Shown here: positions 31,074-42,398 of the stretch, piece after piece
Numbering within the stretch: the first letter of the stretch is position 1
Layout of the letters: every line of letters starts with the position of its first letter
Assembly: GCA_903970445.1 (NCBI GenBank)
Contig: CAJCIP010000104.1
Location: 1 to 47,761, forward strand
Reading direction: 5' to 3'
Origin: Verrucomicrobia bacterium Tous-C9LFEB
GTDB taxonomy: Bacteria; Acidobacteriota; Terriglobia; Terriglobales; Acidobacteriaceae
Length of the DNA: 47,761 nucleotides
Made by a program: the position numbers and the translations under genes
The notes under the pieces: generated by a model
Database searches by the model: none
What the model was told of the DNA's origin: nothing
Seen by the model: the letters and a program-made list of their open reading frames with translations, nothing else

Positions 31074-31898
31074 ATGTCTTCTGCAGCATTTTCCATGGAG
31101 CAGATAAAGACATCCATGCGCACAGCGTGGATGGCAGGCGACTTTGGCGTTGTTGCCAAAACCAATGCGGGAATAGGCGAAGAGTTTGTCGACCGTCTCA
31201 ACCTGCCGGCCGGCGCACATGTGCTGGACGTTGCTTGCGGGACCGGCAATCTTACGATTCCACTGGCCCGGCGTGGTGCAGTCGCAACGGGAGTAGACAT
31301 CGCCGCCAACCTTCTACAACAGGCACGTGAGCGAGCCAATAATGAAGGGCTTGACGTCAGCTTTGATGAAGGTGATGCAGAGCAGCTTCCCTACGGGGAT
31401 GCGAGCTTCGATGCTGTCGTGACAATGTTCGGTGCGATGTTCGCGCCCCGGCCAGAGGTCGTCGCCGCCGAGTTTGCGCGGGTATTGAAGCCCGGGGGAA
31501 TGCTGGCGATGGCAAACTGGACCCCAGATGGCTTCTCAGGGCGGATGTTCAAGGTGGGAAGCCAGCATGCACCTCCGCCCCCAGGGATACCACCACCGGT
31601 ACTTTGGGGGGACGATGCTACTGTTCGGCAGCGGTTAGGTGATGCCTTCACGAACATCGAAACCTATTCAGTTCCGACGGAGTTCAACCTCCCGACGAAC
31701 CCTGAAGGTGCGGTCGCCTTCTTCCGCAGATATTTTGGACCCACTCAGGTTGCGTTCAATCGTCTGGACGAAGCAGGACAACAGGCTTTTACCAGCGATC
31801 TGATCGCGCTATGGTCAGAGGCAAACATCGCTCCTGACCCGGCAGATCATACGGTCGTTCCGAACGAGTTTCTAGAGGTAAGAGCGGTACGGGTCTAG
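31074..31898 (+). CDS. Class I SAM-dependent methyltransferase
   Basis: A 274-residue methyltransferase with the UbiE/Methyltransf_11 pattern: motif I VLDVACGTGNLTIPLA (about 47-62), acidic GVDIAANLLQQARE, motif II-like GDAEQLPYGDASFDAVV, and VLKPGGMLAMANW. The substrate is not evident; a proline-rich loop (PPPPGIPPPV) at about 168-177 is distinctive. ATG 31074 with AAGGAA 7 bases upstream. It converges with the phenylalanine hydroxylase gene, sharing a 4-base CTAG overlap at the stops. It is divergent from the siroheme reductase operon. Confidence 0.9.
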   Translation: MSSAAFSMEQIKTSMRTAWMAGDFGVVAKTNAGIGEEFVDRLNLPAGAHVLDVACGTGNLTIPLARRGAVATGVDIAANLLQQARERANNEGLDVSFDEGDAEQLPYGDASFDAVVTMFGAMFAPRPEVVAAEFARVLKPGGMLAMANWTPDGFSGRMFKVGSQHAPPPPGIPPPVLWGDDATVRQRLGDAFTNIETYSVPTEFNLPTNPEGAVAFFRRYFGPTQVAFNRLDEAGQQAFTSDLIALWSEANIAPDPADHTVVPNEFLEVRAVRV

Positions 31899-32656
31899 CC
31901 GAGGAGTTCCTCTGCTTTCTTCGTGGCTTCATAGATCTGCTCGTACGACTCGATCGCGTAGAGGACTTTCTGCATATTGCCGGTGTCCACTGGCTCATCC
32001 AAAACGCGGCCTAGATCGAAGTCTCGAATCTCCAGTCCTGGACTTCTTTCGACAACATGTGTGCATTCCCCGTGCGAGGAAACCAGGCCGCTGCCGTAGA
32101 CCTTGATTTCACCGCGTTCTCGAATAACGCCAAATTCCACGGTGAACCAGAAAAGCCGTCCCATGCGCTCCAACGCATCTTGGGTTGTGAGCGATGCGCA
32201 TACTTTGCCGTAGTGCTCCAGAAAATCCGCGAAGACAGGGTGCGCGTGCATGGGCACGTGGCCAAATACATCATGGAAGATGTCGGGTTCTGGTGTGTAT
32301 TCCATTGACTTGCGGCTGCGAATCCAGGTCGTTGTCGGAAACATGCGGGCCGCGAGCATTTCGAAGAAAGCATTCGCGGGAAGGAAGCCACTCACAGGTG
32401 TCGATTGCCATCCTGTCCGCGGCTGCAAGCGCGCGCTCACGGCGGTCAGGTTTGGTAAGGATTCCGCGTGCAGCCCAATTTGCTGAAAGCCGCTGAGGTA
32501 GACCTCGGAGGCATGCTCCTCCAGTTGCGGCATACGACGCTGCAGAAGTTCAGACCAGATTGCGTGTTGTTCCGGCGTGTAGGCGTCCCAATCCTGCTGA
32601 ATCAGAAAAGGTTCAGCAGCCTTCAACTTCTTTGAATCAGTGACCGCAATTGGCAT
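31895..32656 (-). CDS. phhA: Phenylalanine 4-monooxygenase
   Basis: Hydroxylates phenylalanine to tyrosine using tetrahydropterin, oxygen and non-heme iron. The 253-residue bacterial-size protein has iron ligands His128 and His133 in PDIFHDVFGHVPM and Glu174 in FTVEFG; no ACT regulatory domain is present. ATG 32656 with AGGAG 5 bases upstream. It lies 39 bases after the MFS transporter gene on the same strand. No pterin-4a-carbinolamine dehydratase gene is in the window. It may begin tyrosine catabolism or supply tyrosine for melanin-like compounds. Confidence 0.95.
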   Translation of the reverse strand: MPIAVTDSKKLKAAEPFLIQQDWDAYTPEQHAIWSELLQRRMPQLEEHASEVYLSGFQQIGLHAESLPNLTAVSARLQPRTGWQSTPVSGFLPANAFFEMLAARMFPTTTWIRSRKSMEYTPEPDIFHDVFGHVPMHAHPVFADFLEHYGKVCASLTTQDALERMGRLFWFTVEFGVIRERGEIKVYGSGLVSSHGECTHVVERSPGLEIRDFDLGRVLDEPVDTGNMQKVLYAIESYEQIYEATKKAEELLG

Positions 32657-32695: not shown

Positions 32696-33967
32696 TCAGC
32701 AGATGCTCTCCGGCACAGAGAGGTTTGCGCCTTTCGCTTCCCGCCCGAGAGCAGCAAAGGCCGCAAGCGCAAGGCCAACAATCAACACTGTCCACGCCAT
32801 CACCGGCGCGAGTCTTCCACCGTAGAAGCTCGACGCAGCTGTCTCCTGCACGTGACTGTTCCACGCAGCGCAAAGGTTCCCTAACTGATACGTAAGACCC
32901 GGAAAGATGGCCCGAACCGGACCCGGCGACATTTCGTTGAGGTGTACAGGCACGATGCCCCACGCGCCCTGCACCATGAACTGCATCAGGAATCCCCCGC
33001 AGGCCAGCAGCACCGCCGTGTGGCTCCATGCCCAAAGAGGGATCGCTGGAATCGCAAGCAATGCAGCCGTAACGATCATGCGACGCCGTCCTAACTTCTC
33101 AGAAAGCGCGCCGAATGTCAGCCCTCCGAAAAATGCTCCGAGATTGCCAACGATTGCGACCGACGATGTTGTTTGCGGGCTGAGATGATAATCGCGCTGC
33201 AGCAATGTCGGATACAGGTCCTGCGTGCCATGGCTGAACGATGCAAAACAGGTCATGAGCGCTGTCAAAATGAGGAACGTGGGAAAGAACCTCTTCACGG
33301 AAACCAGCAATGCGCTCGCAGAGTGCTGCTGTGAAGCGGACTGATGACGCCCCGCGAGCCAAACCGGCGACTCCGTTACACCGAGAAGAAGATAGAACAC
33401 GAGCAACGTGGGTACGGTGGCGAGACAAAACAACAGGCGCCAATTCGCCGCATAGCCGCTCCCATGCAGATGCGGGAACACGAGTCCATAAAGCGCAGCG
33501 GCTAACAGGTTTCCGGTGACATAACCTTCCTGCAGCAAGCCCGAGAAGAAGCCGCGGCCCTCGATAGGCAATGTCTCCATAGCCAGGGCAGCGCCAACGC
33601 CCCACTCTCCTCCCATGGCGATGCCGAACAAAGCGCGCGTCGCGAGAAAAATGCCGAAAGTTGGCGCGAACGCGGATGCAATTTCAAACGCAGAAAAGCA
33701 AAGGATGTTAATCATCAGCACCCTGCGCCGCCCGTAGCGCTCTGCGAGCGCGCCAAACAGCAATGCCCCTATCGGCCGCATGCACAGCGTCCAGAAGAGG
33801 CTCTTCGTTACGGTCATTGCCGAGACATGAAAGTCCGTGGCGACAGCATGAAGACAGAAAGTCAGAACGAAAAAGTCAAACGCATCGAGCGTCCAGCCGA
33901 GAAAGCAAGCAAGGAAAGTTCGACGCTGCGCTGATGAGAGCGCCTGGAACGGTCGGAGCATCGGCAT
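32696..33967 (-). CDS. MFS transporter of the sugar/carboxylate (SHS or metabolite:H+ symporter-like) type
   Basis: A 423-residue, about 12-helix permease. The signature between helices 2 and 3 reads GALAERYGRRRVLMIN, and its second-half counterpart is GALSEKLGRRRMIV. The first helix contains LGWTLDAFDFFVLTFCLH, and helices 4-5 hold FGIAMGGEWGVGAALAMETLP, both typical of lactate/sialate/aromatic-acid symporters. Substrate unknown; a carboxylate is plausible. It lies between the response regulator gene (24 bases) and phhA (39 bases) on one strand, so an aromatic compound is a reasonable guess but only from context. Confidence 0.88.
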   Translation of the reverse strand: MPMLRPFQALSSAQRRTFLACFLGWTLDAFDFFVLTFCLHAVATDFHVSAMTVTKSLFWTLCMRPIGALLFGALAERYGRRRVLMINILCFSAFEIASAFAPTFGIFLATRALFGIAMGGEWGVGAALAMETLPIEGRGFFSGLLQEGYVTGNLLAAALYGLVFPHLHGSGYAANWRLLFCLATVPTLLVFYLLLGVTESPVWLAGRHQSASQQHSASALLVSVKRFFPTFLILTALMTCFASFSHGTQDLYPTLLQRDYHLSPQTTSSVAIVGNLGAFFGGLTFGALSEKLGRRRMIVTAALLAIPAIPLWAWSHTAVLLACGGFLMQFMVQGAWGIVPVHLNEMSPGPVRAIFPGLTYQLGNLCAAWNSHVQETAASSFYGGRLAPVMAWTVLIVGLALAAFAALGREAKGANLSVPESIC

Positions 33968-33990: not shown

Positions 33991-34758
33991 CTATGCTTTC
34001 GCGCGGAACGGAACGACAGTGCTGGGAACCGGAATGTTTACCGCTGTGGACTCGTCCTTCAAGATCTGGTGATGCAGACAGTAGAGCGCAAGCTCGAGTC
34101 TGTCAGAAACACCAAGCTTGTCATAGATCTTGCGGAGATAGTTCTTGATTACTTGCTCGGTCGTGCCAATTTGGTACGCGATTTCCTTGTTGCGCATCCC
34201 GCGCGTAATGCAACCGATGATGGCTAGTTCCTTTGGCGACAAGCGGGGCTGCGTGCGTGGATTTGTCAGCGCAGCGGCCTGGGTACGATAGGCCTCGATC
34301 ACCCAGCTGATGGATTGATTGTCGATCCAAGTTTCACCGGCCGCGATCTTGCGAACGCACTTAACAAGCAGGTCAGGAGAGATCGACCTCGGCACAACAC
34401 CGCGTACGCCACGGCGATAAAGTTCGACGGTGTTGTTCTCTTCGTTTTCCGACACCTGAACGATCAGCTTGGCATCTGGTGCGCGACGCATAAACTGTGG
34501 GATCGCATCGATAGTGCCTGATATGAGCGCGCCCTCGAGCAGAACAACATCCGTAGGAAAACGCTGGAGCGCCGCGTACAGGTTGTCGAGGCTTTCGGCC
34601 TGCGCGACTACGCGGATATCATCCTCAAGCGCGAAAACCTTACGAATTCCAACGCGATAGATGGCCTGTGAATCCGCCACGATGACGCGGACCGCTATTG
34701 TGTCCTCTTCGTCACTGGAGTAGATTCCGTCCCGATTGTCCAACAGGTCTTCCGTCAT
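33991..34758 (-). CDS. NarL/LuxR-type response regulator with an atypical receiver
   Basis: A 255-residue protein: a receiver-like domain at about 22-140 and a LuxR-type helix-turn-helix at about 170-235 (LSPKELAIIGCITRGMRNKE, then a recognition helix in TEQVIKNYLRKIYDKLGVSDR). In the receiver the usual DD pair is Ala28-Asp29 (VADSQAIYRVG), the phosphorylated Asp is Glu75 (DVVLLEGAL) and the conserved Lys is Arg124 (VVPRSIS). It is therefore unlikely to be switched by ordinary phosphorylation. The N-terminus has an extra acidic 20 residues. It starts with ATGA overlapping the stop of the PilZ gene. No histidine kinase gene is near. Confidence 0.9.
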   Translation of the reverse strand: MTEDLLDNRDGIYSSDEEDTIAVRVIVADSQAIYRVGIRKVFALEDDIRVVAQAESLDNLYAALQRFPTDVVLLEGALISGTIDAIPQFMRRAPDAKLIVQVSENEENNTVELYRRGVRGVVPRSISPDLLVKCVRKIAAGETWIDNQSISWVIEAYRTQAAALTNPRTQPRLSPKELAIIGCITRGMRNKEIAYQIGTTEQVIKNYLRKIYDKLGVSDRLELALYCLHHQILKDESTAVNIPVPSTVVPFRAKA

Positions 34759-35093
34759 AAATGCTCAGCCTTCAGAGAGTAATCATCGATCACTGCAGCG
34801 GCTTTATGCTTTCCGTCCGCCGTACTATCGTGGCGAACGATTCTCCCCTGGCAATGAAGGGTTACATCATCGGTTCCACCCATCATGGCCGCTGGCATGG
34901 TCAGGCGTAACTGAACTTCGCTTCCTATCGGCGGAAGATCGTCAGCTGTGAAGAGGAGACCATTGGCGGAAACGTCCTCGGTCATGGCCCGATACTGACG
35001 CTCGCCGGACGATAGTGTTACTTCCAGATGCAACGGAAAACGCACTGAGGCGCGCACTGGGTCGGTTCGAGTCGCTTCAGTGGACTCAGGCAT
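34755..35093 (-). CDS. PilZ-domain protein (cyclic di-GMP receptor)
   Basis: A 112-residue single-domain PilZ protein. The two c-di-GMP contact motifs are intact: RxxxR at Arg14-Arg18 (RASVR) and D-x-S-x-x-G at 40-45 (DVSANG). The remaining strands LEVTLSSGE, GSEVQLRLTMP and TLHCQGRIVR form the barrel. ATG 35093 with AGGAG 5 bases upstream is preferred over a longer in-frame start. Its stop overlaps the start of the atypical response regulator by ATGA, so the two are coupled, and a c-di-GMP signal may act together with the regulator. Effector role is unknown. Confidence 0.85.
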   Translation of the reverse strand: MPESTEATRTDPVRASVRFPLHLEVTLSSGERQYRAMTEDVSANGLLFTADDLPPIGSEVQLRLTMPAAMMGGTDDVTLHCQGRIVRHDSTADGKHKAAAVIDDYSLKAEHL

Positions 35094-35185
35094 TGTTTCT
35101 CCTAGACGCGCCGGCATTGGGTGAGCTGCGAACAAGGGCCATTCTATCCGAGCAAAAGTTGGAGACAATGCCTAAAAGGAAGCAC

Positions 35186-36403
35186 TCAAGCCGGCATTAG
35201 TCCAGCAGAGCCGCCGACCCACGTGCGATCGCGGTTATGGTCCACGCCCATCATTAGCCCGCGCCCCATGCGGACAAGGCTCGTCATAGGAATCATCCTT
35301 TCTCCCTCCGGCCAGACATAGAGAATACGTATCTCAGCCTGAGTTGGACCTACCGGGGTGTGAATAACCGGGTGAAAATTAACCCGCTCTTGGAGGAGGT
35401 AGTTGTGACGTTCATCCGACGGAATAGCGGCTAGGTCAGAATCCGACGGCCCGAATTGAATTCCCTTCCCCGCAAAAGAGTAGAGCGGTTTGAACACCCA
35501 GTTCCTGCGATCTTCGGGAAGGCGGTCACGGCCAATTCCTGCGTACCAGTCATCGAGAAAGACGGCAGCCGGCACAGTTGGATGATCGAGGTGCGGAATG
35601 GAGAATTTACTGATGCGGAAATACCAGTTCGGATGCTCGGCCCATTCCACTTGCAGGTCATCACGGTAGTCAAAAGGCAGTTTCACGTTTTCGCGAACAA
35701 GTTCATCCACAATGACGCGGCTGTAGATTCGCTCGATTGGTGTGAGTTGGCCCGACGATTCATTGCGATAAAACAGCTTGTTCCCTCGCTTCACCAGCTT
35801 TGCAACATCGGCGATGCGAATGCCAAGCTTCTCCGCATGCATGTTGAAGTCCGGCAGCGTCTTTTGCCGCTCCGGCGTAACCTCGGTGAGCACAACGTTC
35901 TCGGGATGGTGCTTACCGACGATCACCTCACGCATCAGTTCCCAGTACTGTGCGTCATCCAGCCCACCGAACATGTAGCGAAGTTCAGGGTCGAGCCGGA
36001 AGACGTCGATGTACGCTTTCGCCAGTTCTGGCTGATAGCCGAAGATCGAAGGGAATGCCTGCATTTCCACGAGCTTTGGCTGCAACGTTCCGTCCTCATC
36101 GCGCACCAGACCAAAGTCCACAGTCATAAAGTGAGGATGTTTATCCTGGTTTGGAACGCAATACTCTTCCGGAATCGCTGCGTCAGATTCCTGCATGTAT
36201 TGCTTGTTGCCGAGCAGCTGTGTGGTCAGTTCGACTCCCGCATTGATCATGCGGTCCATCAACTCCGGCGCAAAGAAGCATGGTGTCTCCGCAATCCTGA
36301 ATTGAATGTTCGTGCGCGTGCGCTGATCGAGTACGCGGAGCAACTCAGCGTACTTAGCGTCTGTAAAGCGTGCGTTGAAGTCGCTGCGGTATGGCTCAAT
36401 CAC
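35186..36403 (-). CDS. Probable circularly permuted ATP-grasp amide ligase
   Basis: A 405-residue protein that I cannot assign to a named enzyme. Two segments look like ATP-grasp parts in swapped order. At about 90-125, VDFGLVRDEDGTLQPKLVEM followed by QAFPS resembles the metal-binding strand pair with an E-x-Q/N. At about 300-312, NWVFKPLYSFAGKGIQFG resembles the nucleotide-binding Lys and glycine loop. They are followed by YLLQERV and AEIRILYVW. This order is that of circularly permuted ATP-grasp ligases. The start is taken as GTG 36403 (GGAG 6 bases upstream) in preference to TTG 36415. It is the last gene of the ligase cluster, 31 bases after the M29-type peptidase gene. Confidence 0.72.
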   Translation of the reverse strand: MIEPYRSDFNARFTDAKYAELLRVLDQRTRTNIQFRIAETPCFFAPELMDRMINAGVELTTQLLGNKQYMQESDAAIPEEYCVPNQDKHPHFMTVDFGLVRDEDGTLQPKLVEMQAFPSIFGYQPELAKAYIDVFRLDPELRYMFGGLDDAQYWELMREVIVGKHHPENVVLTEVTPERQKTLPDFNMHAEKLGIRIADVAKLVKRGNKLFYRNESSGQLTPIERIYSRVIVDELVRENVKLPFDYRDDLQVEWAEHPNWYFRISKFSIPHLDHPTVPAAVFLDDWYAGIGRDRLPEDRRNWVFKPLYSFAGKGIQFGPSDSDLAAIPSDERHNYLLQERVNFHPVIHTPVGPTQAEIRILYVWPEGERMIPMTSLVRMGRGLMMGVDHNRDRTWVGGSAGLMPA

Positions 36404-36434
36404 ACTATGCTCCAAGTGTCTGCGTGGTGAAGGG

Positions 36435-37514
36435 TTAGGCTTCGATCAGAAACTTTCCTTCGCGCATAATCTGCTCTTCGCCTTCGGAGCCGCCGAGCCA
36501 GATGTTGAACGAAAGCCCAACAACGTCGATATGTGTCGTCGACTTCCACGGGGCACCCGTGTGATTGCCGTATGGATCACCGAAGGCAATGTGAATTCCC
36601 GGGAATTTCTCATCCTGGAGAATGTTGCCGATGACGTGGGACACGCCGATGTTAGTACCAATGGCGAACTCACCGACACGGTCAGAGTTCTCATCGGTGT
36701 GTGTGTACGCCCAGAACTCACGTTCGAGTTCCTTGTTGCTGCATCGCACTTCAGTAATGCGATTGCGGCTGATGTTGATGGTCAGCGGTGTCTCGGAAAG
36801 TATGCCGTAGCGCGCACAAAGGAAGTCACCCACGACACCATCAACGACGAAAACGCCATTTACTTCGCCAGGGGCAGTAAAGCACTCGCCACCCGGTAGA
36901 TTTCCCCATTTTTCAGGGCTGATGATTCCGGAGGTCTTGAACCACTTGTAATGAGGATTCAGCTCTGCGCGAATATCCGTCCCTGCAGGCGTGGTCGCGT
37001 GAACGTAGCTCGCCGCGCGGACCTTATCGAGCACGAGCTGGCTGAGGCGATCAACCGCGTTGAAATCGGCTCGCATCCCTTGCAGCATGACCTCCGGCGT
37101 AATGTTCACCATGTGGGCGTGCCGCATGTGGCGACGGTTCACGACATCCGTCATCTGCATGCGGCTGCGGAGCTCGTTAGGCTGCACCTGCACGGCAAAG
37201 ATACTGACCTGCGACGTTTCCATATCGCTCAGCACTTCAGCAGGCATAGCCGTCAGCGGGCGCTCAGCGATGTCTTCCAGTACGAATCCATTCCACCTGC
37301 ACCCAAGTACATCGAGCTCCTGAGCAAGCGCGGCGGCAATAGAGGACGTCGTTTCATCTGTGATCAGCGTGACTTTCTCGCTGGGGGCAATGCGCAGGCA
37401 GGTAACTACCGCGTTGCGCGCGGCAAGGCCGAATTCTTCTGGAAAAGCGATGCTGCGCAGGTCCGTCAATGTGGGTGCTCCGCTCACGTGGCCTTCTTCC
37501 TGAGAAATCTGCAT
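36435..37514 (-). CDS. M29-type aminopeptidase
   Basis: A 359-residue metallopeptidase-like protein of the thermophilic aminopeptidase (M29) family. The C-terminal half has the expected metal ligand series: Glu210 in NLPGGECFTAPGEVNG, Glu282 in VGEFAIGTN, His308 in GIHIAFGDPYGNH, and His328 with Asp330 in KSTTHIDVV. The N-terminal half is a non-conserved alpha/beta domain with a His/Arg-rich VVNRRHMRHAHMV helix. It should be cytoplasmic, as no signal peptide is seen. ATG 37514 lacks a ribosome site; GTG 37487 has AAGG 4 bases upstream and is an alternative start. It sits 12 bases after the YbdK-type ligase gene. Confidence 0.85.
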   Translation of the reverse strand: MQISQEEGHVSGAPTLTDLRSIAFPEEFGLAARNAVVTCLRIAPSEKVTLITDETTSSIAAALAQELDVLGCRWNGFVLEDIAERPLTAMPAEVLSDMETSQVSIFAVQVQPNELRSRMQMTDVVNRRHMRHAHMVNITPEVMLQGMRADFNAVDRLSQLVLDKVRAASYVHATTPAGTDIRAELNPHYKWFKTSGIISPEKWGNLPGGECFTAPGEVNGVFVVDGVVGDFLCARYGILSETPLTINISRNRITEVRCSNKELEREFWAYTHTDENSDRVGEFAIGTNIGVSHVIGNILQDEKFPGIHIAFGDPYGNHTGAPWKSTTHIDVVGLSFNIWLGGSEGEEQIMREGKFLIEA

Positions 37515-37526
37515 TTGACTGTATTG

Positions 37527-38630
37527 TTACAGGCCGGCACGCGTTTCCGAGGCCATGTAATCCACAACGTTCTTCAGGTCGCCCGTCTCGCGATAGACCT
37601 TCAACTGTCGGTCAGCGCCGGAGCCTTCGCGGATCATGTGAGGGATGTGGTCGATTGCCTCCCTTGCGCCTAGTTCATCGACCACATCGTCAACAAAGGC
37701 GAGGTATTCGTGAATCAAATCGCATTCGGAGACTTCTACCTGCTTGCCGAAATCGATCAGCTTTCCTTCGAGCCCATAGCGCACCGCGCGGAACTTGTTC
37801 TCCAGTAGCAGCGGGCGGGAGTAGTTGCGAAAGTCGAGGTTGCGTTCGTGCAGCTGCCAGAGCTTCGCCGCGGTGCACTGGATCAATGCGGCGATGGCGA
37901 CAGTTTCCTCAGCACGCATTGGAATATCGCAGGCGCGGACCTCGATCGTATTGAAGAAGGGATGTGGCCGGATGTCCCACCAAATCTTCTTACCGTTGTC
38001 GATGCAGTTCGTCTTCACCAAAAGATTCACATAGCTTTCGAACTCAGAGTAGTCCGCAAAGGTATCCGGGATATTGGTACGAGGAAAATGCTCAAAGACT
38101 TTTGCGCGATAGCTCTTGTAGCCGGTCTCCATACCCATCCAAAATGGCGAGTTCGTGCTGAGCGCGATGATGTGAGGCAGGAAGTACCGGAAAGAGTTCA
38201 TGATGCGGATCGCCGCTTCGCGATCTTCAATGCCTACGTGCACATGCAGGCCGAAAATCAGGTTTGAACGCGCAACAAGCTGCAAATCCTCAACGACCTT
38301 GTCGTAACGCGGATCGGGATAGATTTCCTGGTTACGCCAGTCAGCAAAAGGGTGAGTAGCGCCTGCAACTAAAACCAGGCCGTTCTCTTCCGCCAGTCGG
38401 ATGAGATTGCGACGAAGGTCGTAGATGTCCTCGCGAGCCTCCTCCACCGTGTGGCAAATGCGCGTCCCGACTTCAATCACTGATTGATGAAGCTCCGCTT
38501 TGACGCGCTCCTCGAGACGGATAGCACCTTGCGCGAGCATGTCCGTAGAAATGTGCGAACGCAGATCGCGAGTCTCGGGGTCAATCGTTTGATATTCCTC
38601 TTCAATGCCAAGGGTGAAAGAAGGTCGCAT
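37527..38630 (-). CDS. ybdK: YbdK-type carboxylate-amine ligase (GCS2 family)
   Basis: A 367-residue protein of the glutamate-cysteine ligase type 2 superfamily, which forms gamma-glutamyl or similar amides with ATP. Landmarks are the N-terminal TLGIEEEYQTIDPETR, ELHQSVIEVGTRIC (about 46-59), VLVAGATHPFADW, FGLHVHVGIEDRE and a C-terminal WDIRPHPFFNTIEVRACD. E. coli YbdK itself has only weak glutamate-cysteine ligase activity and its true substrate is unknown, so the same holds here. ATG 38630 with AGGAA 4 bases upstream. It stands between a conventional ATP-grasp gene and an M29-type peptidase gene in one operon. Confidence 0.93.
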   Translation of the reverse strand: MRPSFTLGIEEEYQTIDPETRDLRSHISTDMLAQGAIRLEERVKAELHQSVIEVGTRICHTVEEAREDIYDLRRNLIRLAEENGLVLVAGATHPFADWRNQEIYPDPRYDKVVEDLQLVARSNLIFGLHVHVGIEDREAAIRIMNSFRYFLPHIIALSTNSPFWMGMETGYKSYRAKVFEHFPRTNIPDTFADYSEFESYVNLLVKTNCIDNGKKIWWDIRPHPFFNTIEVRACDIPMRAEETVAIAALIQCTAAKLWQLHERNLDFRNYSRPLLLENKFRAVRYGLEGKLIDFGKQVEVSECDLIHEYLAFVDDVVDELGAREAIDHIPHMIREGSGADRQLKVYRETGDLKNVVDYMASETRAGL

Positions 38631-38683
38631 ATCGTTCCTCGCTGTGACTCATACTTCTTCGTTGGTAGGAGCCAATCATCTGC

Positions 38684-39673
38684 CTACTTCCTGGCGGCTT
38701 TCTTTGCAGCTGGCTTACCCGCAAGCTCCGTGGTCATCGTGCCACCTGACAGAAAGCGCGCCCAGTTGAACTGCGTACTCTGCAACTCAGGGTTCTGCGC
38801 CTTCTTGATCGCGAGCTTTGAAACACGGTCGATGATCCACTCGAAGTTTGCTTCGCCGACGGAGTGCCGGTCAGCATCCGGCGCAGGGTTCATGAAGTCG
38901 ATAGCGTATGGCACCCCGTCTTCTACAGCGAACTCAACGGTATTGAGGTCGTAGCCCAAAGCGCGGCAAAGCGTCAGCGCATCCTTCTCCACGCGCGCCA
39001 GCAGCCCTTTTGGATACTCGGGAGGGTCCTGCACATAGCGCAGATGGTGCGGCTGCCGCGGGTCGTACGGCATGATGTGCACTTCTTCCTGGCCAACGAC
39101 GTAGCAGCGGAAATACTCGTTGAACTTTACGGCAGCCTGTAGCGTCATGCAGAGGTCGCGCGATTGGTCGTAGGCTTCGAAGAACTCCTGTGGGTCGTGC
39201 ACGTGGTACACGTCGCGCCATCCTCCGCCATCATGCGGTTTGAGGAACGCAGGAAACTTCACGTAATCGAAGATCGAGTCCCAGTCAAGCGGAAACTGCA
39301 TATTGCGGCAGGATTGTCCGTTGATGTCCGGCGGATAGTACTTGTGCGGAATCAACGCTGTTCGAGGAACTGCGACCCCCAGTTTGTCGGCCAACGCGTA
39401 GTTGAAGAACTTGTCATCCGCAGACCACCAGAATGGATTGTTGATGACGGTTGTGCCGGTCAGAACGGCATTCTTTAGATAGGCACGATAGAACGGCATG
39501 TCGTGCGAGATCCGGTCTACGATCACTGCGTAGGGGCAGGGCTTTGCCATCTCCACGCCACCCACTTCAACAAACTCCGCAGTGATGCCTTCCACGTTCA
39601 TCGCGTTGATGCGCTCGACTAGAGCAGGTGGAAACGTATTTTCCTGACCAAACAAAACGCCAATCTTCTTCAT
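38684..39673 (-). CDS. ATP-grasp ligase (RimK/D-Ala ligase-like)
   Basis: A 329-residue cytoplasmic ligase with the standard ATP-grasp order. The nucleotide-binding part is FPAFLKPHDGGGWRDVY (Lys145 and glycine loop, about 140-155). The second strand pair is TLQAAVKFNEYFRCYVVG (about 177-194). The catalytic metal-binding region is NTVEFAVEDGVPYAIDF then MNPAPDAD (Glu247, Asp259 and Asn262). The N-terminal pre-ATP-grasp domain begins KKIGVLFGQENTFP. The C-terminus is a Lys/Ala tail (KPAAKKAARK). The amide product is unknown. ATG 39673 with GGAGGAAGA directly upstream. It lies 41 bases after the esterase gene and 53 before the YbdK-type gene. Confidence 0.88.
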   Translation of the reverse strand: MKKIGVLFGQENTFPPALVERINAMNVEGITAEFVEVGGVEMAKPCPYAVIVDRISHDMPFYRAYLKNAVLTGTTVINNPFWWSADDKFFNYALADKLGVAVPRTALIPHKYYPPDINGQSCRNMQFPLDWDSIFDYVKFPAFLKPHDGGGWRDVYHVHDPQEFFEAYDQSRDLCMTLQAAVKFNEYFRCYVVGQEEVHIMPYDPRQPHHLRYVQDPPEYPKGLLARVEKDALTLCRALGYDLNTVEFAVEDGVPYAIDFMNPAPDADRHSVGEANFEWIIDRVSKLAIKKAQNPELQSTQFNWARFLSGGTMTTELAGKPAAKKAARK

Positions 39674-39714
39674 TCTTCCTCCGCTTGTTCTTTCCGCGCT
39701 ATTGCATGCTCAGC

Positions 39715-40431
39715 TTAGAGATAGACCTGCACCATACGTTGCCACCACGGCCAGTCGTGCCCTGTACCATCGCCCCAAACATCGAGTTGGACGGGTAAGC
39801 CTTTATGGCGCATCGCTGAGGCGAGGCGCTCGTTATCGTTCCAACACTGATCGTGCACGCCGGTCGCCAAGACGTATTTGTTGTTCCTCATACGATCCAA
39901 AAACCAAGGATCGTTGAGTCCCGGGATGTAATCGAGCGGCTGATTGTAATAGACGTCACTGTCGTAGTAGCCGTGCAAAAATCCAAGCTTCTTCAGGTCG
40001 AAGGCTCCACTCATCGACAAGCAGCCACTAAAAACGTCAGGGTGTTTGAAAGCGCTGTTCACAGCATGGAAGCCGCCGAAGCTGCAGCCCATGGTGATGA
40101 AGTATGGATTCTGGTTCAGCCAACGAACAAACGGCGCTACCTCATGCACGATGTAGCGGTCGTACTGTGCTTGGCGAGCGATGCGCCAGTCAGCCCCTAC
40201 GCCGCGGTTGTACCAGCTCTCGGCGTCAAGCGAGTCGACACAAAAAAGTTGCAGCTTCCCGGCATCAATCTTGTCCGCGACGGCAGCAACCATCCCGCGA
40301 TCTTCGAACTCATAAAAGCGCGCCTGCGATGTGGGAAACACGACGGCCGGGACTCCATCGTGGCCGAAGACCAGCAATTCCATGTCCCGGCGCAGCTCGC
40401 CGGAAAACCATTTGTGATAATCGCGCTTCAT
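39715..40431 (-). CDS. Esterase-D/antigen-85-like alpha/beta hydrolase
   Basis: A 238-residue serine hydrolase without a signal peptide. The nucleophile is in ITMGCSFGGFHAVNSAF (G-x-S-x-G, about residue 115-119). Asp and His candidates are in GVHDQCWNDNE and GTGHDWPWW near the end. The motif FPTSQARFYEFEDRG is family-typical. The hydrolase belongs to the esterase/PHB-depolymerase group that includes enterochelin esterase and S-formylglutathione hydrolase. ATG 40431. It is probably the first gene of the minus-strand ligase operon, transcribed away from a second esterase gene. Substrate unknown. Confidence 0.88.
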   Translation of the reverse strand: MKRDYHKWFSGELRRDMELLVFGHDGVPAVVFPTSQARFYEFEDRGMVAAVADKIDAGKLQLFCVDSLDAESWYNRGVGADWRIARQAQYDRYIVHEVAPFVRWLNQNPYFITMGCSFGGFHAVNSAFKHPDVFSGCLSMSGAFDLKKLGFLHGYYDSDVYYNQPLDYIPGLNDPWFLDRMRNNKYVLATGVHDQCWNDNERLASAMRHKGLPVQLDVWGDGTGHDWPWWQRMVQVYL

Positions 40432-40481
40432 CGTGCTCGTGCGGCCCTCTGGTACTCTGAGGCCTTATTCAAACACAGGGG

Positions 40482-41402
40482 TTGTGTATCGCATTGAAGC
40501 TCTCTCCTCAGGACATTTCCACGGAGGCAGGTTTCACCGCCGAGGCCGAGATGTCGCTGCCGTTTGAACAGGGCGCGGACCTAATTACAAGCGATGCCCC
40601 GCCGCCAGAACTGGCGGGCAATCGCCGCTATCGCGTTCTTCCTGAGTTCCATTCGGACTTCCTCGCAAATGATCGAGCCATCCGCGTATATCTGCCGGAG
40701 GCTTACTTGTCGGAGCCCGCACGTCGCTTTCCTGTTTTCTATCTTCACGACGGCCAGAACCTGTTTGATGGACGCACTTCTTACGCCGTGAACCGCACGT
40801 GGCGCGCGCACACGACCACGGATGCGCTGATATCGGCTGGTGTGATCGAACCCGTGATCCTGGTGGGCATCGATAACACCGGCGTTCATCGAATGGCGGA
40901 GTACACGCCGACCCGCGACATGCGCATGGGCGGCGGTGACGGCCCACGTTATGGCCGGCTGCTGTTCGAAGAGCTGAAGCCGCTCATTGACTCTGAATTT
41001 CGCACGCAGCCGGAGGGGAATAAAACCGGATTAGGAGGCTCGTCGCTGGGCGGTCTGATATCGCTTGCCCTCGGCCTTGACTACGCAAACGTGTTCGGTA
41101 GGCTTGCGGTAATGTCGCCAAGTGTTTGGTGGAATCAGCGCGCCATTCTCATGCTGGTGAGTGAGGCGATGCCAAAGCCGCGCCCCCGGGTATGGCTGGA
41201 TATGGGAACCTCCGAAGGCTTGCGGCACCTGCGGGACTGCGACCTGCTGCAACACCGCCTGGTCAATCGCGGTTGGAAGCCAGGAAGGGACCTGCGATAC
41301 CTGCGCATACCCGGCGGGCTGCATGATGAGGAAGCCTGGTCGCGTCGATTCGATCAAGTGCTCCGTTTTCTCTATCCGGCTGTGGACGAGGTTCATTGCT
41401 GA
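40482..41402 (+). CDS. Enterochelin-esterase-like alpha/beta hydrolase
   Basis: A 283-306 residue serine hydrolase related to IroE/Fes-type esterases. The nucleophile is in GLGGSSLGGLISLALG, with FPVFYLHDGQNLFDG and LAVMSPSVWWN as family blocks. The C-terminal His is in IPGGLHDEEAWSRR. No signal peptide. The start is uncertain: TTG 40482 (AGGGG upstream but only about 2 bases away) or ATG 40551, where a plausible short N-terminus begins. It is divergent from the ligase operon, sharing a spacer of about 50 to 120 bases, so the two may be co-regulated. It probably belongs to the same pathway, but that is inferred. Confidence 0.85.
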   Translation: MCIALKLSPQDISTEAGFTAEAEMSLPFEQGADLITSDAPPPELAGNRRYRVLPEFHSDFLANDRAIRVYLPEAYLSEPARRFPVFYLHDGQNLFDGRTSYAVNRTWRAHTTTDALISAGVIEPVILVGIDNTGVHRMAEYTPTRDMRMGGGDGPRYGRLLFEELKPLIDSEFRTQPEGNKTGLGGSSLGGLISLALGLDYANVFGRLAVMSPSVWWNQRAILMLVSEAMPKPRPRVWLDMGTSEGLRHLRDCDLLQHRLVNRGWKPGRDLRYLRIPGGLHDEEAWSRRFDQVLRFLYPAVDEVHC

Positions 41403-42092: not shown

Positions 42093-42398
42093 GTGACTGA
42101 AAGCTCCGAGCGTTCCTTGCAGAAGGACGCTGTCAGCGCCATGCAGTCGTTGATACAGGAACTTGCCAAAGCGCTGGTGGATGACACGGCGGCAGTGCAG
42201 GTAGAAGTGGTTAGCGATAACGACTCAGCCGTGCTGAGGCTGAAAGTGGCCCAGACCGACATTGGTAAGGTGATCGGAAAGCAGGGACGCACCGCACGTT
42301 CCTTACGTACGATCCTCAGCGCGGCAAGCATGAAATATCAGCAGCGGTTTGCTCTCGACATCATCGAGGCGGGCGTTGCGGTCGAACCCGAAGAGTAG
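42093..42398 (+). CDS. khpA: KH-domain RNA-binding protein KhpA
   Basis: A 101-residue single KH-domain protein; the core motif is IGKVIGKQGRTARSLRTIL (about 57-75), with the GxxG loop GKQG. KhpA proteins bind RNA, often with KhpB, and affect cell size and sRNA function. The N-terminus has an extra 20 residues with SERSLQKDAVSAMQ. GTG 42093 with AGAGGT about 8 bases upstream. Its usual neighbours rimM and trmD are absent; a fatty-acid/leucine catabolic operon follows. Confidence 0.92.
   Translation: MTESSERSLQKDAVSAMQSLIQELAKALVDDTAAVQVEVVSDNDSAVLRLKVAQTDIGKVIGKQGRTARSLRTILSAASMKYQQRFALDIIEAGVAVEPEE

Follow-up and report, generated by a model that had tools for sequence, protein, structure and literature searches.

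A conserved set of three amide-bond ligases, a hydrolase and an esterase in Acidobacteriaceae, with a probable role in making a small gamma-glutamyl (pseudo)peptide

What could be made by a row of genes encoding three unlike amide-bond ligases, a peptidase and an esterase? Such a row lies on the minus strand of contig CAJCIP010000104.1 of Verrucomicrobia bacterium Tous-C9LFEB (assembly GCA_903970445.1), within a stretch of 47,761 nucleotides that was analysed as a whole and is called the window here. It is a real and widely conserved combination of known enzyme folds that has no assigned pathway. The five minus-strand genes are considered, with fair probability, to form one enzyme set for a small non-ribosomal, probably gamma-glutamyl, (pseudo)peptide. 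An earlier, sequence-only reading of this DNA had described six genes with tight spacing of 12 to 53 bases, and a check of the open reading frames (ORFs) in the window found all six in place:

35186-36403, minus strand: predicted circularly permuted ATP-grasp ligase of the glutathione synthetase / glutathionylspermidine synthetase / YgiC fold (CPgrasp), 405 amino acids.
36435-37514, minus strand: M29-family aminopeptidase-like metallopeptidase (M29), 359 amino acids, PF02073 at 2.7e-12.
37527-38630, minus strand: GCS2/YbdK-type carboxylate-amine ligase (GCS2), 367 amino acids, PF04107 at 1.1e-66.
38684-39673, minus strand: ATP-grasp ligase of the Ddl/RimK/LysX class by model and Foldseek, 329 amino acids.
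39715-40431, minus strand: esterase A, an alpha/beta hydrolase and the first gene of the conserved string, 238 amino acids, PF00756 at 1.9e-8.
40551-41402, plus strand: esterase B, a divergent and peripheral alpha/beta hydrolase, 283 amino acids from the likely ATG, PF00756 at 1.4e-31.

From CPgrasp to esterase A, the spacers are 31, 12, 53 and 41 bases. CPgrasp starts at a conserved ATG at 36403, with M1 invariant in aligned relatives. Esterase B has a longer frame of 306 amino acids from a TTG at 40482, and the alternative ATG at 40551 is the more likely start because similarity to 14 of 16 aligned relatives begins at residues 20 to 47 of the TTG frame.

Sequence comparison places CPgrasp loosely. 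Its match to Pfam CP_ATPgrasp_1 (PF04174) is sub-threshold (E 0.009, 15.5 bits against a cut-off of 23.1), no further Pfam family matched at 0.01, a profile search of PDB sequences gave nothing below E 0.88, and profile comparison gave nothing useful with Gss and a local match only, with a weak whole-length score, with YgiC. By the fold of its model (predicted local distance difference test score, pLDDT, 87.7), the protein is a circularly permuted ATP-grasp. Foldseek comparison with PDB yielded 29 matches at E of 1e-3 or lower, 10-17% identical, and all of them are of the glutathione synthetase, glutathionylspermidine or trypanothione synthetase, YgiC or Cp1B kind, the glutathione synthetase-type matches including homoglutathione synthetase and nematode GSS-like effectors. 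Among them are yeast glutathione synthase (7.9e-15) and YgiC (3.2e-12). The sequence-only reading had named this assignment as probable and had made its single-pathway idea depend on the protein being related to ATP-grasp, and both the model and the 29 structures bear the relation out.

D96, E113, Q115 and K305 of CPgrasp are invariant among 19 diverse sequences. In the model, residues 92-101 and 107-116 form a two-stranded hairpin that carries D96 and E113-x-Q115, one on each strand. The three E. coli relatives show a similar pattern, D102 and E115-x-N117 in YgiC numbering, and a metal-binding hairpin with D and E-x-N is presumably a trait of the GSS/GspS/YgiC circularly permuted ATP-grasps. 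In CPgrasp D96 and E113 would be the counterparts of D and E, and Q115 would stand at the N position in 19/19 sequences, a pairing with YgiC made by motif and hairpin position, not by superposition; the Asn-to-Gln change at this putative metal site would be a family trait. Additionally, a local alignment pairs the loop K305-P-L-Y-S-F-A-G with KPIFSREG in YgiC of E. coli, within a weak overall profile score.

The residue patterns expected of each enzyme class are also kept in the other two ligases. The 329-residue ATP-grasp has no Pfam match at 0.01, its profile finds D-Ala-D-Ala ligase (Ddl) in PDB at 4.1e-6, and its model (pLDDT 84.7) matches Ddl (2.4e-14), RimK (1.0e-13) and LysX/ArgX (3.2e-13) as well as microviridin-type macrocyclases. 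Against the curated rimK_fam model it scores 25.1 bits, under the cut-off of 143.4, while the ATP-grasp fold itself is recovered. K145, G149-G-G, D259 and N262 are kept in at least 97% of 103 sequences, orthologues in the fetched loci. The GCS2 ligase scores 528.5 bits against NCBIfam PRK13515, above the cut-off of 371, and its G8-x-E10-E11-E12, which reads GIEEE in the window, is kept in at least 97% of 78 full-length sequences; a GhExE Mg/ATP signature has been described for GCS2-type ligases (PMC2588565). Its activity as a gamma-glutamyl ligase is a prediction from sequence.

Both hydrolases of the string also retain their catalytic residues. M29 exceeds the curated Pfam cut-off (46.7 bits against 27, residues 168-355), and E210, E282, H308, Y315, H328 and D330, invariant in 8 aligned sequences, match the metal-ligand and catalytic pattern of the family, namely two Glu, two His, Tyr and Asp. 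In esterase A, G115-x-S117-x-G119, D194 and H225 are kept in at least 97% of 64 sequences.

Whether such genes belong together can be asked of other genomes, as the sequence-only reading had proposed, holding that the idea of a single pathway would fail if the genes parted in relatives. Each of the five was searched separately in 101 related genomes. Left out of the counts were GCS2 matches at 36-38% identity (G081, G084, G089), the M29 matches of G081 and G094, and esterase A matches that were partial or under 35% identical. ATP-grasp was present in 30 genomes, esterase A in 33, close GCS2 in 27, and CPgrasp and close M29 in 26 each; 25 genomes have the complete five and 66 have none of them, so that the core five stay together or at least co-occur in relatives. 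CPgrasp and GCS2 agree in 100 of the 101, both being found in 26 and neither in 74, with GCS2 alone once (G075) and CPgrasp alone never. The co-occurrence is more than one clade counted repeatedly, since ATP-grasp is found in 17 of 62 genera and CPgrasp in 14 of 62.

Gene order was read from loci obtained by scanning a collection with the ATP-grasp alignment, which confirmed at least 588 related stretches; the best 80 of these were used. The Acidobacteriota group was assigned from genomes of the same class and from record titles, and taxonomy outside the 101 relatives is that of record titles. Loci sharing identical C-terminal 250 residues of ATP-grasp were counted once. Of the 57 Acidobacteriota-group loci that then remain and extend 6 kb or more beyond ATP-grasp on its downstream side, 30 have the order ATP-grasp, GCS2, M29, CPgrasp, and one has GCS2, a class-I GATase-like protein, CPgrasp. 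Where enough upstream sequence was available, esterase A lies just upstream of ATP-grasp in 40/63 Acidobacteriota-group loci and 4/17 others. Esterase B, a member of a large family with some match in 79 of the 101 related genomes, is divergent near ATP-grasp in 26/63 and 2/17, and a six-gene unit was therefore rejected. Thus, of the six genes first put forward as a set, the five on the minus strand are linked or co-occur in relatives, while esterase B is peripheral.

Clustering of neighbouring ORFs of at least about 90 amino acids in the 80 loci, a list made up mostly of shadow frames, gave no further frequent partner. Recurrent neighbours named by eye were aldo/keto-reductase-like (9 loci), DinB-like (8) and short-chain-dehydrogenase-like (4), with a DinB_2 relative confirmed. 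None of the six cluster proteins matched the PADLOC anti-phage defence models, and a defence-system reading was rejected on that result. Plasmid carriage was rejected as well, on searches with ATP-grasp and CPgrasp, neither of which had a plasmid match. M29 and GCS2 are separated in two related genomes by other ORFs, about 4.5 kb in all, that run on the opposite strand (L029:1614-5863 and L030:1514-5523). One record labelled Rhodanobacteraceae (L085), counted with the Acidobacteriota group, holds the full Acidobacteriaceae-type cluster together with its KH, PilZ and regulator flanks; this contig is probably mis-binned.

The set extends beyond Acidobacteriaceae. The best 80 loci include records labelled Verrucomicrobia/Opitutia, Ignavibacteria, Kapaibacterium, Chlorobiota, Bacteroidetes, Cryomorpha ignava and Cloacimonetes, and for 24 of them, taken from the lower-identity end outside Acidobacteriaceae, whole genomes were followed up. 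Carriers available in culture include Bryocella elongata DSM 22489 (L050) and Cryomorpha ignava (L128). Among these 24 ATP-grasp-bearing genomes, CPgrasp was found in 20 (no match in G105, G107, G115 and G121) and GCS2, at 52-61% identity, in 22 (no match in G118 and G119). Outside Acidobacteriaceae-type loci, identity to the window proteins is 54-59% for ATP-grasp, 52-61% for GCS2 and 36-48% for CPgrasp. In seven of the 24 (G102, G103, G104, G106, G112, G114 and G115), labelled Kapaibacterium, Ignavibacteria or Chlorobiota, neither CPgrasp nor GCS2 adjoins ATP-grasp; six of these hold both on other contigs among unrelated genes, and G115 holds GCS2 only. That the genes co-occur even when unlinked is the best indication that they share a pathway.

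Additionally, two members of the set are exchanged for other enzymes in some lineages. A class-I GATase-like protein follows GCS2 in the place of M29 at four loci, sitting between GCS2 and CPgrasp in L047, L112 and L128 and adjoining GCS2 at a contig end in L129, and its C107, H210 and E212 are invariant across the four. Close M29 (57-59% identity) occurs in 6 of the 24 genomes and the GATase-like protein in 7, never both. As both hydrolyse amide bonds, the exchange suggests removal of an aminoacyl or gamma-glutamyl group, and it fits a hydrolytic trimming or deprotection step. At two loci from Acidobacteriota records, L107:8747-10408(+) and L111:3055-4539(+), another permuted ATP-grasp of the PF14403/PF04174 type lies between ATP-grasp and GCS2. 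The two proteins are 68% identical to each other, that of L111 passing the Pfam cut-offs of PF14403 and PF04174 and that of L107 the cut-off of PF04174, and searches of both genomes with CPgrasp gave no match. The role of a permuted ATP-grasp thus seems to be kept though the family changes. Exchanges of this kind suggest chemically equivalent steps, which narrows the search for a substrate.

From these folds, conserved residues, gene orders, multi-phylum co-occurrences and exchanges, a pathway can be proposed. That all the enzymes act on one compound is what we infer, as are the sequence in which the bonds form, the use of glutamate and the tasks given to hydrolase and esterase. Relatives of GCS2 act on glutamate at its gamma-carboxylate, ligases of the Ddl/RimK types link amino acids, and GSS/YgiC-type enzymes add an amino acid or polyamine to small peptides. 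For each of these ligase classes, the conversion of a carboxylate to an acyl phosphate and its joining to an amine is established chemistry, for GCS2 as given in PMC2588565. The GCS2 ligase would in this way couple a carboxylate to an amine, the gamma-carboxylate of glutamate being the likeliest candidate. The Ddl/RimK-type ATP-grasp would make a second amide bond. CPgrasp would make the third and, if it works as its analogues do, extend a gamma-glutamyl peptide at the C-terminal carboxylate with an amino acid or an amine. The hydrolase, M29 here and a class-I GATase-like Cys hydrolase in other lineages, would take off an aminoacyl or gamma-glutamyl group, whether for trimming, deprotection or salvage; esterase A may cleave an ester on a precursor or on the product. 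The simplest product would be a short gamma-glutamyl (pseudo)peptide or its amine conjugate, and a small peptide-like compound is probable given that the same gene set recurs in several phyla. Since the ligase genes are unlinked in some genomes, a local precursor gene for a ribosomally synthesised and post-translationally modified peptide (RiPP) or graspetide is less likely.

Several observations weigh against the proposal that one enzyme set acts on one compound. The 80 loci are those nearest to the query, so similar context is over-represented among them, and the Fisher values for co-occurrence take no account of relatedness between genomes. Two near-complete genomes (G006 and G046, both 99%) carry ATP-grasp but lack GCS2, M29 and CPgrasp, and five genomes (G005, G009, G013, G021 and G058, the last 99% complete) carry esterase A but none of the ligases. 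Because each occurs without its partners, ATP-grasp and esterase A are not strictly tied to the set. The counted esterase A matches in G034, G075 and G093 are just 38-39% identical and located elsewhere, and in G093 CPgrasp lies about 2.1 Mb from ATP-grasp, so that presence is not always linkage. No partner was found within 6 kb downstream of ATP-grasp in 9/57 Acidobacteriota-group loci and 5/14 others. Of the 24 genomes outside Acidobacteriaceae, 11 have neither close M29 nor the GATase-like protein, and a distant M29 protein (28-30%) is also present in four of the seven with the latter.

The same enzymes could serve other ends. The ligases might add amino acids to a protein or other macromolecule, with M29 or the GATase-like hydrolase removing the tag, and RimK does add amino acids to ribosomal protein S6. 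The ATP-grasp model matches RimK, and amidoligase sets with peptidases were reportedly proposed as tagging systems by Iyer et al. in 2009. The low rimK_fam score speaks against such a role, as does CPgrasp, which matches small-peptide and amine ligases and has tubulin tyrosine ligase among its structure matches at E 0.2 or worse only; moreover, no recurrent tag or target gene was recognised among the neighbouring ORFs of at least about 90 amino acids, a size below which a short tag would escape. Macromolecule tagging is judged unlikely. It is likewise improbable that the enzymes handle an amine or amino acid that is consumed and not made, with GCS2 gamma-glutamylating the amine, the ATP-grasps modifying it and the GATase-like protein or M29 deglutamylating it. 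The Puu pathway offers a parallel, pairing the GS-fold PuuA with the class-I GATase-fold PuuD; the pairing of a ligase with a class-I GATase-like hydrolase recurs in the present loci, and YgiC is annotated as acting on spermidine. Three ligases nevertheless exceed the need of a one-step protection, and no amine oxidase was recognised among the recurrent neighbours, a weak point given that the aldo/keto-reductase-like and short-chain-dehydrogenase-like ORFs recur. Finally, that the genes are mere neighbours in a lineage-specific island, as the solitary ATP-grasp and esterase A genes and the flanking KH, PilZ, regulator and MFS genes constant within the genus might suggest, is very improbable in view of the three ligases co-occurring in other phyla even when unlinked and the agreement of CPgrasp with GCS2 in nearly all relatives.

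In its multi-phylum spread, in the identities given above and in the co-occurring copies that are unlinked in some lineages, the gene set resembles a sporadic secondary-metabolite cluster less than it does a conserved metabolic pathway. Of the 101 relatives, 98 have BshC, an enzyme of bacillithiol synthesis, with and without the five-gene set, its three misses (G019, G020 and G043) being genomes 54-81% complete. A replacement thiol was accordingly rejected as the product, which would be at most an additional compound. GshB-type PF02955 is above its cut-off in 1 of the 101, with GshA and GshF outside the search. A more specific proposal, held tentatively and with less than even confidence, is that the three ligases mark a route, so far undescribed and akin to primary metabolism, whose product is either a small gamma-glutamyl (pseudo)peptide cofactor or a polyamine or amino-acid conjugate. 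It would run alongside bacillithiol in Acidobacteriota and also occur in Verrucomicrobiota, Bacteroidota/Ignavibacteria relatives and Cloacimonadota, and in some lineages the third ligase and the hydrolase would each have given way to an enzyme that is a distant relative or none at all. With the product identified, bacterial metabolism would gain a small molecule, and functions could be given to three families of ligases, among them one that scores above threshold with no Pfam model.

Downstream of CPgrasp, three further genes outside the core continue on the same strand:

34755-35168, minus strand: PilZ-domain protein, PF07238 at 9.8e-13.
33991-34758, minus strand: LuxR-type regulator with a receiver-like domain, GerE at 4.3e-12.
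32696-33967, minus strand: MFS transporter, PF07690 at 3.5e-33.

PilZ follows CPgrasp after a 17-base gap, the regulator overlaps PilZ by 4 bases, and the transporter follows after 23 bases. PilZ and the regulator adjoin the cluster in most same-genus loci and in a few other Acidobacteriaceae, and the transporter is retained downstream of the regulator in several same-genus loci (L024, L025, L026, L028, L031 and L032). The claim that the cluster has no transporter thus holds for the conserved core only, as the MFS gene continues the same-strand series in the window. In the regulator, Glu (in VVLLEGAL) stands where the phosphoacceptor Asp of a receiver is expected, a position assigned by eye, and the substitution is common to 11/11 aligned sequences. 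The Response_reg match, at 27.3 bits, is under the cut-off of 30.2, and the protein would be a pseudo-receiver regulator whose gene overlaps that of PilZ. A biopterin-dependent aromatic amino acid hydroxylase gene (31895-32656, minus strand, PF00351 at 6.7e-48) follows the transporter on the same strand after 39 bases. On the other side of the cluster, a KhpA-type KH-domain gene (42093-42398, plus strand) is a frequent neighbour within the genus; in relatives it stands among ORFs resembling, by eye, the genes of ribosomal protein S16, RimM, TrmD and L19.

An open literature search found no description of this gene set. The most relevant earlier survey, that of ATP-grasp/GS-like ligases with peptidases by Iyer et al. 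in 2009, lay outside that search; it is said to cover such systems and may list the five genes. The available text of PMC4431377 and PMC8939145 mentions neither GCS2 nor M29. Glutathione and homoglutathione synthesis likewise pairs a GS-fold carboxylate-amine ligase with a GSS-fold circularly permuted ATP-grasp, whereas the present cluster adds a third ligase, a peptidase and an esterase, and CPgrasp is only 10-17% identical to its 29 best solved matches. The peptide-spermidine ligases YgiC/YjfC, the former so annotated, and glutathionylspermidine synthetase share the fold of CPgrasp, and YgiC also shares the Lys/Gly ATP loop. They differ in having E-x-N where CPgrasp has E-x-Q, in whole-length profile similarity that is weak or absent, and in that CPgrasp belongs to a three-ligase cluster. 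Homoglutathione synthetase and YgiC are among the structures nearest to Cp1B, the stand-alone ATP-grasp that builds the pseudodipeptide of E-64 (PMC12568646). The second ligase of that route is, however, an adenylating amide synthetase, and an oxygenase forms the warhead; neither is in the conserved core here. Also related are the bacterial amidoligase-peptidase neighbourhoods predicted by Iyer, Aravind and colleagues, for which the pairing of GCS2-like ligases with GATase-like thiol peptidases was pointed out in 2008 (PMC2588565).

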